Shown here: positions 2,959-8,091 of the stretch, piece after piece
How the letters are laid out: each line of letters starts with the position of its first letter
Position numbering within the stretch: position 1 is the first letter of the stretch
Origin: Polyangiaceae bacterium
Lineage (GTDB): Bacteria > Myxococcota > Polyangia > Polyangiales > Polyangiaceae
Assembly (NCBI GenBank): GCA_025936205.1
Contig: JAICTU010000425.1
Coordinates: 1-8,091, forward strand
Direction: 5' to 3'
DNA: 8,091 bases
The notes under the pieces: model-generated
Databases searched by the model: none
What the model was told of the DNA's origin: nothing
Seen by the model: only the letters and a program-made list of their open reading frames with translations
Translations under genes and position numbers: made by a program

Positions 2959-3039
2959 AGCGACGCGGGGACGCTCGGTGGGCGGTCCTGGCGTGCGCTG
3001 GCGCGCTGGAGCGCCGAGCCCGTCAGCCGCGGAGCGTGC

Positions 3040-3047
3040 TATACACT
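3040..3047 (+). promoter_or_regulatory. Weak -10-like TATACACT before the Uma2 gene
   Basis: TATACACT sits 5-12 bases before the ATG at 3052 in a GC-rich spacer. It contains overlapping partial matches to TATAAT. I see no good -35 element and no Shine-Dalgarno sequence, so a near-leaderless transcript would have to be assumed. The sequence is low-confidence evidence for a local promoter. Confidence 0.22.
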
Positions 3048-3051
3048 CGAG

Positions 3052-3627
3052 ATGTCCCTGCGCGCGCCGGCCCGGGCAACGTTTGCCGATCTCCTCGCGC
3101 TGGGAGACCAAGCATTTCACGAGATCCTCTCCGGTCACCTGGTGGAGAAAGCAGCGCCTCTGCCGGAACATGGCCTTGCGCAAAGGGCGCTCGGCCGCTT
3201 CATCGGCGGCCCGTATCACGACGACGACGGTCGAGGAGGGCCGGGAGGCTGGTGGATCCTGACGGAGGTGGAGGTCGAGCTCGAGCAACACCAAGTGGTG
3301 CGACCGGACATTGTGGGTTGGCGTCGCGAGCGGCTGCCTGCGCCCTGGGGGCAACGGCCTGTACGGGTGGTGCCGGATTGGGTGTGCGAGGTGCTGTCGC
3401 CCTCGGATGAGCGTCGCGATCGCGTGCACAAGTCCGCGCTCTATCTCAGGTCCGGGGTCGAGTATTTTTGGCTCGTCGCACCGGCGGAGCGCTTGCTCGA
3501 GGCGTATCAGCGACAGGGCGCTGCGTGGTTGCGGCTGGGGGCGTGGGGAGATTCGGAACGCGCGCGGATCGTTCCGTTCGACGCGGTCGAGATCGATCTA
3601 TCGCGGCTTTTCCCGCCGCTGGGATGA
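3052..3627 (+). CDS. Uma2 family protein (DUF820), putative PD-(D/E)XK nuclease
   Basis: This 191-residue protein has the full-length layout of the Uma2/DUF820 family, which carries a restriction-endonuclease fold and is strongly expanded in cyanobacteria and myxobacteria. Visible family landmarks are HEILSGHLVEK near residue 23, an EVEVEL strand, RPDIVGW (with D86 as the core Asp), PDWVCEVLSPSDE (with E113 as the core Glu), K127 in the following helix and GVEYFWLVAP near residue 138. The usual ExK lysine is replaced in EVL, as is common in this family, so K127 may take its place; this is an inference. The biological role of Uma2 proteins is largely unknown. The gene stands alone, 93 bp after the cellulase gene. 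The ATG at 3052 gives the normal family N-terminus. Confidence 0.85.
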   Translation: MSLRAPARATFADLLALGDQAFHEILSGHLVEKAAPLPEHGLAQRALGRFIGGPYHDDDGRGGPGGWWILTEVEVELEQHQVVRPDIVGWRRERLPAPWGQRPVRVVPDWVCEVLSPSDERRDRVHKSALYLRSGVEYFWLVAPAERLLEAYQRQGAAWLRLGAWGDSERARIVPFDAVEIDLSRLFPPLG

Positions 3628-3723
3628 GAAACGGGAGGCGCGCCGCGCTCCGCACGCCACGTGGCTTCCACGGGCGGTGTCCGCTTCCCTCCAGGACCGA
3701 AGTGGGCGCGGGACTGAGCGCGG

Positions 3724-3729
3724 TTGAAA
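3724..3729 (+). repeat. Left copy of a flanking direct repeat TTGAAA (candidate target-site duplication)
   Basis: TTGAAA here, immediately outside the left inverted repeat, matches TTGAAA at 4061-4066 immediately outside the right inverted repeat. The match extends to seven bases (TTGAAAG) if the first base of the element is counted. Such a repeat is the expected footprint of transposon insertion. Confidence 0.65.
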
Positions 3730-3892
3730 GCTCAGGATTCGTCACATCTCGGCACTGCGTCGCCGAAGCTCTGGAGCGGTTGAGAGCAACGGTAGGACGC
3801 CTGGCTGCGCTGAAGGAGGTGGGGTTGCGCGAGAGGAAGTTCATGTTCCTCGGGAAACCTGACTTCGTGCGTCTGGAAGGGACGACGGTGGG

Positions 3893-3920
3893 CAGTTGGC
3901 CTGTGGGATTGCGCCAACTG
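3893..3920. repeat. Internal 8-bp inverted repeat of the MITE-like element
   Basis: CAGTTGGC (3893-3900) pairs perfectly with GCCAACTG (3913-3920) across a 12-base loop. It lies close to the centre of the 331-bp element. MITE-like elements often fold into long secondary structures, and this stem could extend such a fold in DNA or RNA. Confidence 0.5.
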
Positions 3921-3992
3921 GAGCTTCGGGCGGGGGAGGTGCGGATCGTCCGCTTGCGGCACGCACGGAGCGGGACGGCTCCGCTCGGCTTC

Positions 3993-4007
3993 GCGCGAGG
4001 CTCGCGC
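3993..4007. repeat. 15-bp odd palindrome GCGCGAG-G-CTCGCGC
   Basis: A perfect 7-bp inverted repeat surrounds a single central base near the right end of the MITE-like element. A smaller dyad (CGGAGC with GCTCCG, 3966-3983) lies just upstream. A hairpin with a one-base loop cannot form well in RNA, so a protein-binding or cruciform role is more likely, if it has any. Confidence 0.4.
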
Positions 4008-4060
4008 CCGGCCCCCCAGAGGCTCCGGGCACTCGATGCGAGATGTGACCAATCCTGAGC

Positions 4061-4066
4061 TTGAAA
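4061..4066 (+). repeat. Right copy of the flanking direct repeat TTGAAA
   Basis: This is the partner of the copy at 3724-3729. It abuts the outer end of the right inverted repeat exactly, with no spacer bases. Confidence 0.65.
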
Positions 4067-4075
4067 GGGGCCGAT

Positions 4076-4104
4076 TTGCCCGCAGGTCGAGCTGATGATA
4101 TCAT
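4076..4104 (+). promoter_or_regulatory. Promoter of the toxin-antitoxin operon
   Basis: TTGCCC (4076-4081) and TATCAT (4099-4104) resemble -35 and -10 boxes, matching four and five of six consensus positions, with the ideal 17-bp spacer. The expected start of transcription is near 4110-4112, right at the antitoxin ATG (4113), so the mRNA would be leaderless or nearly so. The -10 box lies inside the palindrome at 4096-4111. Confidence 0.55.
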
Positions 4105-4111
4105 GATATCA
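4096..4111. promoter_or_regulatory. Operator palindrome: two tandem TGATATCA sites
   Basis: TGATATCATGATATCA is a perfect 16-bp palindrome made of two copies of the self-complementary 8-mer TGATATCA. It covers the predicted -10 box and ends one base before the antitoxin ATG. Antitoxins with a ribbon-helix-helix domain, alone or bound to their toxin, normally repress their own promoter by binding such repeats; the half-site resembles those described for FitA-type systems. The symmetry is seen directly and the binding is inferred. Confidence 0.75.
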
Positions 4112-4112
4112 G

Positions 4113-4370
4113 ATGGCCGATATTTTGATTCGCAAGGTCTCTAGCAAGACCAAACAGCTGCTCCGCCGTCGCGCGGCGCGGCGCGGCGTCAGTTTGGAGT
4201 CAGACCTCCGCGAAACGCTGGAGCGGCTTGCCCTCGAGGAAGCCTCGTCACCCGACGATGTCGAGCCGTTTGGTACCTGGCTGGTCTCGATCTCGCGTCC
4301 GGGAATCGACCTGGATCCGGCGCTCGACGAGCTGCGCGCCGCCCCGCTGCGGCCGACGGATTTCGAATAG
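4113..4370 (+). CDS. Ribbon-helix-helix antitoxin (FitA/VapB type)
   Basis: This 85-residue protein should neutralise the PIN toxin encoded next to it and repress the operon. The N-terminus MADILIRKVSSKTKQLL fits the FitA-type ribbon-helix-helix fold: a short DNA-contacting strand (about residues 3-8), helix 1 (SSKTKQLLRRRAARRG) and helix 2 (SLESDLRETLERLALEE). The C-terminal part (about 50-85, ending LRAAPLRPTDFE) is of the type that wraps around the toxin and blocks its active site. The ATG at 4113 is fixed by an in-frame TGA at 4104-4106. No Shine-Dalgarno sequence precedes it, consistent with a near-leaderless transcript. The toxin gene starts two bases after the TAG stop. Confidence 0.88.
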   Translation: MADILIRKVSSKTKQLLRRRAARRGVSLESDLRETLERLALEEASSPDDVEPFGTWLVSISRPGIDLDPALDELRAAPLRPTDFE

Positions 4371-4372
4371 AA

Positions 4373-4810
4373 GTGATCCTGCTGGATACGAACGTCCTTT
4401 CCGAGGCGCTGAAGCCGGTGCCGGCCGCACCCGTGATCGCGTGGCTGGATGAGCACTATCCCGACTGCGGGATCTGTAGTCTCACCGCGTTCGAGCTGCG
4501 CGCCGGCTTGGTGGTACTTGCCGATGGCAAGCGCAAAGCGGCATTGGAGAACGCGGTCGAGCGCGCACTCCGGCGCTTCGCGGAGCGGACGTATGCGTTC
4601 GATGCAGCTGCGGCTCATAGCGCAGCCGTGGTCCTCGCCGAAGCTCGCAAGGCCGGGCTGCCGCTGGGTCAGGTACCTATCAAGCTTGCTGATCTGCAGA
4701 TCGCTGCCATCGCGAGCGCCTACGGCCTGCAACTGGCGACGCGCAACGTCGCCGACTTTCGTGGGCTCGGTTTCGGCCTGATCGATCCCTGGAACGCGAA
4801 GCCCGGCTGA
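4373..4810 (+). CDS. PIN-domain toxin ribonuclease (FitB/VapC type)
   Basis: This 145-residue protein is a probable Mg-dependent endoribonuclease held inactive by the upstream antitoxin. The PIN active-site acids are all in place: D5 in MILLDTNVLSE, E41 in TAFELRAG, D107 in KLADLQIAAIA, plus N125/D128 in TRNVADF. The segment LPLGQVPIKLADLQIAA is typical of the FitB branch. Length is normal for the family and the frame is intact, so the toxin looks functional. The start is GTG at 4373, two bases after the antitoxin stop, which suggests translational coupling and antitoxin-first synthesis. The gene converges on the sigma-54 activator gene, with only 19 bp between the two stops and no obvious terminator there. 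The RNA target cannot be read from sequence. Confidence 0.92.
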   Translation: MILLDTNVLSEALKPVPAAPVIAWLDEHYPDCGICSLTAFELRAGLVVLADGKRKAALENAVERALRRFAERTYAFDAAAAHSAAVVLAEARKAGLPLGQVPIKLADLQIAAIASAYGLQLATRNVADFRGLGFGLIDPWNAKPG

Positions 4811-4829
4811 CGAGCGCGCGTGAGCGCCA

Positions 4830-6792: not shown

Positions 6793-6809
6793 TTGGCATG
6801 ACGGTTGCT
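6793..6809 (+). promoter_or_regulatory. Sigma-54 (-24/-12) promoter upstream of the kinase gene
   Basis: TTGGCATG-ACGG-TTGCT matches the sigma-54 consensus TTGGCACG-N4-TTGCW at all positions but one (T for C). The invariant GG (6795-6796) and GC (6807-6808) are separated by exactly 10 bp. Transcription would begin near 6820. The adjacent divergent gene encodes a sigma-54-type activator. The predicted start site lies only about three bases before the GTG used for the kinase gene, so that mRNA is either near-leaderless or translated from a start further in. Confidence 0.75.
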
Positions 6810-6822
6810 CAACTCCCCCGCG

Positions 6823-8091
6823 GTGACTCAAAGCGAGAATCGAATCGAGCGCGCGGAGCAGACTCGACCTTGCGAAGAGCTCCTGGGCCTGGACTTGGCC
6901 GCTCCAGAGTCAGCGAGAGCGCTGGCGGAGCGCGAGCCGGCGCCCCCGTTTGGGCGCGATGCTGTCGGGCGCGATGCTGGGCCGCGCGAGAGCGCGTCTT
7001 CTTCTGGCCGCGAGTCCGCGCACTGCCTGAGTGACGAGCAGGTGCTCGCGTTCAGCGAGGGCAGCCTGCCGCCGGAGGCCATGGACTCGGTGAACGCCCA
7101 CCTCGACTGGTGCCCCACCTGCCAGGAGCTGGTCAACGCGGCGGTCCACGACTGGGACCATCCGCCGGCGTCGGTGGCGTCCGACCGCATCTGGATGGCG
7201 ACCTTCGGCCCACGCCAGATGATTGCCGGCCGCTACCGCATCGAGCGCTTTCTCGGCCGCGGCGGCATGGGCGAAGTGTATGCGGCGTTCGACACCGTGC
7301 TCAGCGACCACGTGGCGCTCAAGACGGTGCTCTCGACCAGCTCCGACAACCCGAGCGCCGTCAAACGCCTGATCTCCGAGGCGCGGCTCGCCCGGCGCAT
7401 CAGCCATCCCAACATTTGCCGCGTGCACGACGTGGGCGTGCACGAAGACCACGGACGCATCGACGAACGCCTGCACTTCCTCACGATGGAGTTCATCGAA
7501 GGCAAGCGCCTCGGTCAGATCCTGCGTGCGGGCCCGCTGCCGCTCGAGCTCGCCCTGCGCATTGCGCGCCAGATCCTCTCCGGGCTCGACGCCGCGCATC
7601 GCGCCGGCGTGTTGCACCGCGACCTCAAGAGCGACAACATCATGGTCAAGGGCGCGGGCGACGCGGTCCACATCACCATCACCGACTTCGGGCTCTCCCA
7701 GGCGCTCGATGCGCACGCGCGCGCGATTGGCGGCGGCCGCCAGGAGCGCGTCGGCAGCCTCGCCTACATGGCTCCCGAACAAATTCTCGGCCACGACCTG
7801 GGCCCGGAGACGGACGTCTTCGGCTTCGGCGTCGTGCTCTTCGAAATGCTGTGCGGGCGCCTGCCGTTCTTATCGGAAGGCGAAAACCCGCGCGAGATGG
7901 CCCTGCGCCGCTTGAACGAGCACGCCGAGCCACCGAGCCGCTATCGCGCAGACCTTCCTGCGGCGCTCGATGCGATCGTGAGGCGCTGCCTGGAGCTGGG
8001 GCGCGAAGTGAGATTCAGGTCGGCGGGTGAGGTGCTCGAGGCGTTGAAGGAAGTGGACGCGGGCGGGGTGGGCTCGAGCGAAGAGGCTTCG
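6823..8091 (+). CDS. Ser/Thr protein kinase with N-terminal anti-sigma-type zinc finger (3' truncated)
   Basis: The frame runs open from the TGA at 6799-6801 to the window end, giving 423 residues. Residues 1-66 are low-complexity and hydrophilic. A zinc-binding C-x24-H-x3-C-x2-C motif follows (C68, H93, C97, C100), as in anti-sigma-factor zinc fingers (zf-HC2). The Hanks-type kinase domain begins near residue 135 with the glycine loop GRGGMGEVY (from 145), ATP-binding K167 in VALK, catalytic HRDLKSDN (265-272, D267), DFG (288-290) and APE (317-319), so it looks active. No membrane helix is visible before the cut; a C-terminal sensor or effector region may follow. GTG at 6823 is tentative: TTG 6895 is an alternative, and the first in-frame ATG (7081) would remove part of the zinc finger. 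The gene is preceded by a sigma-54 promoter and is divergent from the activator gene. Confidence 0.9.
   Translation, partial: MTQSENRIERAEQTRPCEELLGLDLAAPESARALAEREPAPPFGRDAVGRDAGPRESASSSGRESAHCLSDEQVLAFSEGSLPPEAMDSVNAHLDWCPTCQELVNAAVHDWDHPPASVASDRIWMATFGPRQMIAGRYRIERFLGRGGMGEVYAAFDTVLSDHVALKTVLSTSSDNPSAVKRLISEARLARRISHPNICRVHDVGVHEDHGRIDERLHFLTMEFIEGKRLGQILRAGPLPLELALRIARQILSGLDAAHRAGVLHRDLKSDNIMVKGAGDAVHITITDFGLSQALDAHARAIGGGRQERVGSLAYMAPEQILGHDLGPETDVFGFGVVLFEMLCGRLPFLSEGENPREMALRRLNEHAEPPSRYRADLPAALDAIVRRCLELGREVRFRSAGEVLEALKEVDAGGVGSSEEAS

Follow-up and report, generated by a model that had tools for sequence, protein, structure and literature searches.

We found that a 329-bp segment of the window (the whole 8,091-nucleotide stretch of DNA analysed here) is very probably a miniature element without a transposase, derived from an IS4-family element of the IS50 (Tn5) subgroup. 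The segment has the features of a MITE: it is short, has paired terminal inverted repeats and a target duplication, and contains no transposase. The original prediction of a non-autonomous transposable element is supported by the terminal inverted repeats together with the target duplication, and most likely the segment is a new member of an already known kind of non-autonomous insertion element. The analysis places a formerly orphan repeat in the Tn5 family, for which transposase and ends have been studied in great detail; no principle is changed by the finding.

The segment is bounded by a 24-nt inverted repeat (arms 3728-3751 and 4039-4062, spacer 287 nt) that is 96% complementary (23/24), confirming the predicted near-perfect inverted ends with one mismatch. 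It was the only inverted repeat of at least 21/22 spanning no more than 600 bp in the window, where it appeared as three overlapping registers. In 60 first-order Markov sequences of window length, zero repeats reached 21/22 and the top score was 19/22, so the inverted repeat exceeds chance expectation. TTGAAA adjoins the arms on either side (3724-3729 and 4061-4066), and it had been taken as a clean duplication enclosing a gene-free 331 bp. Because the complete relatives described below mostly begin with CTCA, one base further in, we abandoned this six-base reading. In the register of the complete relatives, the element occupies 3731-4059 (329 bp), one base inward per side, and is flanked by a direct repeat of 8 bp (3723-3730/4060-4067) that is identical at seven of eight positions. 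Direct-repeat matches at lengths 10, 9, 8, 7 and 6 numbered 3, 4, 7, 3 and 1, and among these lengths 8 bp alone fits as a duplication. The flanking TTGAAA and the lack of a recognisable gene stand; with the boundaries moved to the register of the relatives, an 8-bp duplication with one mismatch is the best reading. The features of the locus are collected in Table 1.

Table 1. Features of the element and its surroundings (positions in the window)
Feature	Position	Strand	Basis
Uma2-family protein gene (PF05685), outside the element	3052..3627	+	Pfam
Target duplication, left copy, GTTGAAAG	3723..3730	+	7/8 against the right copy; lengths 6, 7, 9 and 10 poor
Left terminal inverted repeat, CTCAGGATTCGTCACATCTCG, inside-end-like	3731..3751	+	7/7 conserved IS50-subgroup positions
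Non-autonomous IS4-family (IS50 subgroup-like) element, very probable, 329 bp	3731..4059	.	Inverted repeats; end consensus 7/7 at both ends; register of relatives
Interior, no recognisable gene, crossed by open frames on both strands	3752..4038	.	Pfam, protein and transposase comparisons
Right terminal inverted repeat, minus-strand reading CTCAGGATTGGTCACATCTCG, inside-end-like	4039..4059	-	19/20 against the G210 end
Target duplication, right copy, CTTGAAAG	4060..4067	+	Direct-repeat length comparison
FitA-like ribbon-helix-helix antitoxin gene (PF22513)	4113..4370	+	Pfam; start codon 45 bases past the right duplication
PIN-domain protein gene (PF01850), probable toxin partner, FitB/VapC type by place	4373..4810	+	Pfam

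The end consensus of the IS50 subgroup is given as CW------Y---CA-A--W- in Table 1 of De Palmenaer and colleagues (PMC2266710), where the direct repeats of the subgroup are listed as 8-9 bp. Both window ends matched this tabulated consensus at seven of seven positions in the register 3731-4059, and shifting the register by 1 or 2 bases (-2 to +2) reduced the matches to 0-4. The ends, which the original prediction had not recognised as those of a known insertion-sequence family, thus fit the IS50/Tn5 subgroup of IS4. The direct repeat falls within the tabulated range at 8 bp, with one mismatch. Complete insertion sequences of the subgroup encode a DDE transposase with the YREK signature and measure 1350-1550 bp. 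The window element has no transposase and measures 329 bp, so it can be at most a derivative of an IS50-subgroup insertion sequence. It resembles IS50/Tn5 in its end consensus, its 8-bp duplication and the Tn5-like transposase of its relatives. It differs in lacking a transposase, in its length and in having two inside-type ends, which are without the GATC of the inside ends of CTCA-type relatives.

Complete relatives were found by way of the ends. In genome G218, two end matches mark elements first measured at 1469 and 1414 bp. The two are 87% alike; one encodes an intact 469-aa transposase, and in the other the transposase is broken. The intact transposase matched PF14706 and PF01609, scored 285.6 bits against NF033590 ('IS4 family transposase', cut-off 160) and matched the solved Tn5 transposases (PDB, 1mus) over residues 5-460 with an E-value of 2.7e-33. 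Judged by these sequence matches, the transposase of the relatives is Tn5-like and of the IS4 family.

Used as a query, the G218 transposase found matches at E<=1e-30 in 47 of 317 genomes. We examined 44 transposase loci (L109-L152) for ends; several of these are further copies within a genome, and L138 is the same place as L151. Ends were called in 33 of the 44 loci and were weak or absent in 11. The called elements measure 1343-1573 bp, with typical ends of CTCAGGATCCTACACATCTCG (outside-like) and CTCAGGATTGATCACATCTC (inside-like), some starting with CTGA, CTGT or TAAA. Exact duplications flank 19 of the 33 called elements (12 at 8 bp, 1 at 9 and 6 at 10), counts that lean upwards since the duplication formed part of the score by which end pairs were chosen. 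Two more had a duplication with one mismatch, and 12 had none, five of these being cut by a contig end. At L120, L123 and L130 the flanks were simple repeats. Among 20 further loci, mostly with more distant transposases, six exact duplications of 9-10 bp were found, and many of these loci had no trustworthy ends. One genome (G264) carries five copies of a 1573-bp IS4-family element (L114, L141, L142, L145 and L146); four of the five have exact 10-bp duplications, exceeding the 8-9 bp tabulated for the IS50 subgroup.

In most complete CTCA-type elements the two ends are unlike, one being outside-type and the other inside-type. Complete elements of G218 (L092 1677-3143), G210 (L139 299-1702) and G297 (L143 252-1705) have ends of the form CTCAKGAT... 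and exact 8-bp duplications; unlike the window element, they encode a transposase, and one of their ends is outside-type (CCTACACA or CATACACA). TTGATCA is present in the inside ends of CTCA-type relatives. We take the inside end of Tn5 to carry this same TTGATCA core, and the inside and outside ends of Tn5 presumably differ from each other as the two ends of the relatives do. A full-length element with identical ends was sought, and none of the loci had exactly both window ends. The nearest end among these loci was the inside end 3' of the transposase gene in the complete G210 element (L139 1683-1702), which agrees by eye with the right repeat of the window at 19/20 positions.

A pair of alike ends also occurs in complete elements. 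G285 has a complete 1503-bp element with two GGTC-type ends, and G283 a complete 1504-bp element with one GGTC-type and one GGTT-type end; exact 9-bp duplications were present in L213, L215 and L217, the flanks of the latter two being identical. These elements raise the possibility that the partner of the window element belongs to such a clade with two alike ends (G285, nearly G283), and that the short element simply kept both natural ends. We consider this version of the IS50-subgroup reading unlikely: the ends of these elements agree by eye with the right end of the window at 16-17 of 20 positions, against 19 of 20 for the G210 end, and their duplications are 9 bp long where that of the window is 8.

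We scanned genome contigs with a 21-base end pattern, which read GTCACATC. The scan gave one match, which lies about 130 bases from the end of contig WYBA01000096.1 of Myxococcales MAG PRO3; in viral contigs the pattern matched 0 stretches. PRO3 (G001) served as the centre genome, and its class was sampled as 317 genomes. Allowing up to 3 mismatches, the pattern had 89 matches in 43 of the 317 genomes, and the reversed pattern had 5 (hand-summed). At least four of the 89 matches bound transposase genes (G210:C20, G156:C460, G218:C1 1850822 and G218:C3 1366655). Tn5-type ends, together with the short paired-end pieces described below, are thus scattered through the PRO3 class. Many of the end matches are close to a contig end (a few hundred bases at most), as repeats that break assemblies should be, and such ends may therefore help explain broken assemblies.

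Among the genomes richest in ends were G001, G073, G249, G141 and G024, with 12, 11, 7, 5 and 5 matches. A search of 15 genomes with NF033590 gave hits at E<=1e-10 in four (G007, G148, G218 and G122), three of them above the cut-off, and found no such transposase in these five end-rich draft genomes. The partner missing there may have been lost, or may lie in an assembly gap, since the drafts break at these ends. In PRO3, end-like motifs at L001 2610-2930, L022, L025, L029 and L030 adjoin dispersed repeats of the form CATCCTGAGC...GTCGAAGGATG, which may serve as targets or form part of short elements; L001 also carries a CGTCTC-type microsatellite.

Besides the window element, we identified 11 other paired-end elements of 144-724 bp in nine genomes, with up to 3 mismatches per end (L081 is the same as L224). 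Six of the 11 are flanked by duplications of 7-10 bp that are exact or differ at one position: L029 (7/7), L060 (7/8), L076 (9/9), L087 (9/9), L101 (8/8) and L104 (9/10). At the other five a clear duplication was not seen, and the flanks of L096 are palindromic. The ends of L060, L076 and L094 agree with one another at only 15/22. In G218, five loci have most of about 45 end-adjacent bases in common, and only two of the five yielded a second end. The 423-bp paired-end element L224 of G148 encloses a fragment of a transposase and lacks a clear duplication; as an example of internal deletion, it points to one way in which the short pieces may originate. The largest short element, L096 474-1197 in G276, is 724 bp long, with ends matching at 22/22, near-palindromic flanks; its open frames have a high content of R, P and G. 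Among the matches listed in a search of the open-access literature, there was no account of such short elements in myxobacteria.

The interior of the window element was compared with genes, proteins and other elements. Pfam gave zero families in the three tested open frames overlapping the interior, and Rfam gave zero matches anywhere in the window. Two element-spanning frames, compared with about 5.8 billion proteins, shared words with 273 and 3 candidates, none of which reached E<=1. Against nine transposases of the relatives the best E-value was 0.16, and a transposase remnant was undetected. The interior shared nothing with the short or complete related elements and had short matches to other loci only. 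As a DNA query, the whole element had matches at E<=0.01 in 86 of the 317 genomes (best 2 candidates per genome), in short stretches of which many lay at query positions 235-300. We read these as GC-rich composition rather than homology, except for the end matches in G001 and G073. A plasmid match at query positions 227-258 (E 0.3) was discarded as a weak match in a GC-rich stretch.

Further copies, which the original prediction had proposed to look for, did not appear: neither the 317 genomes of the PRO3 class, which do not include the source genome (BLAST, best 2 candidates per genome), nor the protein-word searches yielded another copy of the interior. This lone interior, together with the mismatch already present in the duplication, is what one would expect of a solitary decayed remnant, left by a full element after loss or exchange of its middle, the short form having never moved. 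Such a history is compatible with the family assignment, and we hold it to be a real, if minority, possibility. Set against it are the inverted repeats, still matching at 23/24, and the duplication, still at 7/8; so are the short paired-end elements of the class and the end-adjacent bases common to the five G218 loci.

The internal dyads noted in the original prediction had been taken to suggest a folded structure. The whole segment does fold strongly (z -4.89 and -5.51 for the two strands, RNA parameters), and the part without the terminal repeats folds weakly (z -1.18, with 21 of 200 shuffles equally good; DNA parameters, + strand). The internal dyads therefore add little weight. A rival reading, of a hairpin or regulatory repeat that acts in cis between Uma2 and fitAB and is transposon-like in looks only, would agree with the intergenic position near fitA and with the good folding of the whole segment. 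We rejected it as extremely improbable because structure of the interior is lacking, the fold signal coming mainly from the terminal repeats. Direct repeats also adjoin the ends, like ends recur across the class and in some cases lie at transposase genes, and a fitAB-like match in genome G296 shows no similarity in the element.

For the favoured reading of a transposase-less IS50-subgroup derivative, the following course can be proposed. A Tn5-like transposase supplied in trans would bind both inside-end-like repeats, and the 329-bp piece would be excised by cut-and-paste. Cuts staggered by 8 bp would then let it insert between Uma2 and fitAB, and one base of the duplication would have changed after insertion. 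We infer that the 329-bp element may have derived from a full element by losing its middle, though its interior has no detectable transposase remnant. MIC231 cassettes are, we assume, an IS4-family precedent for such non-autonomous pieces. Like these cassettes and other bacterial MITEs derived from insertion sequences, the window element is non-autonomous, has insertion-sequence ends and is presumed to move in trans. It contrasts with MIC231 in having no recognisable gene and in that IS231 is placed in a different IS4 subgroup from IS50 (PMC2266710).

A broader scenario concerns the GATC site. In several transposons, binding of the transposase is inhibited when GATC sites in the ends carry Dam methylation (PMC3347997). 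By eye, GATC was absent from both 20-base ends in the window element and in eight of the 11 short elements, and present in L076, L101 and L104, a tally in which ends without GATC were favoured by the reading of the search pattern. One may conjecture from these end sequences that loss of GATC could offer escape from a Dam-like methylation brake. The window element would then belong to an undescribed, widespread myxobacterial group of Tn5-type miniatures with two inside-type, GATC-less ends, escaping the brake on the parent and spreading at its expense; we regard this scenario as quite improbable.

We also compared the locus with that of the closest genome found by the sigma-54 regulator, G296 (87% protein identity, residues 44-575). 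At L189 of G296 the convergent cellulase and sigma-54 regulator genes are adjacent, with about 70 bases between them, and the orthologous place is without the whole block of Uma2 gene, element and FitA/PIN pair (window 2959-4829). This block is likely a site of gene gain or loss. The original prediction named, as refuting it, the lack of a second copy in related genomes together with orthologous loci that always contain the segment. The former holds so far for the genomes searched; the latter does not, as the G296 locus, the only orthologous one identified, is not filled. No exact empty site could be seen there, the block around the element being absent as a whole. G296 also carries, on other contigs, fitAB-like (71%, about 690 bases) and Uma2-like matches, and both lack the element. 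Window positions 3400-3730 had matches in 58 of 108 genomes of the G296 family (best 6 candidates per genome); the best of these lie within Uma2, with some short matches at window 3630-3692. Just upstream of the fitA start codon at 4113 lies a perfect 16-bp palindrome, TGATATCATGATATCA (4096-4111), which by eye is a candidate operator of the antitoxin. At the far end of the window (6805-8091), an open frame that runs off the window appears by eye to encode a serine/threonine protein kinase.
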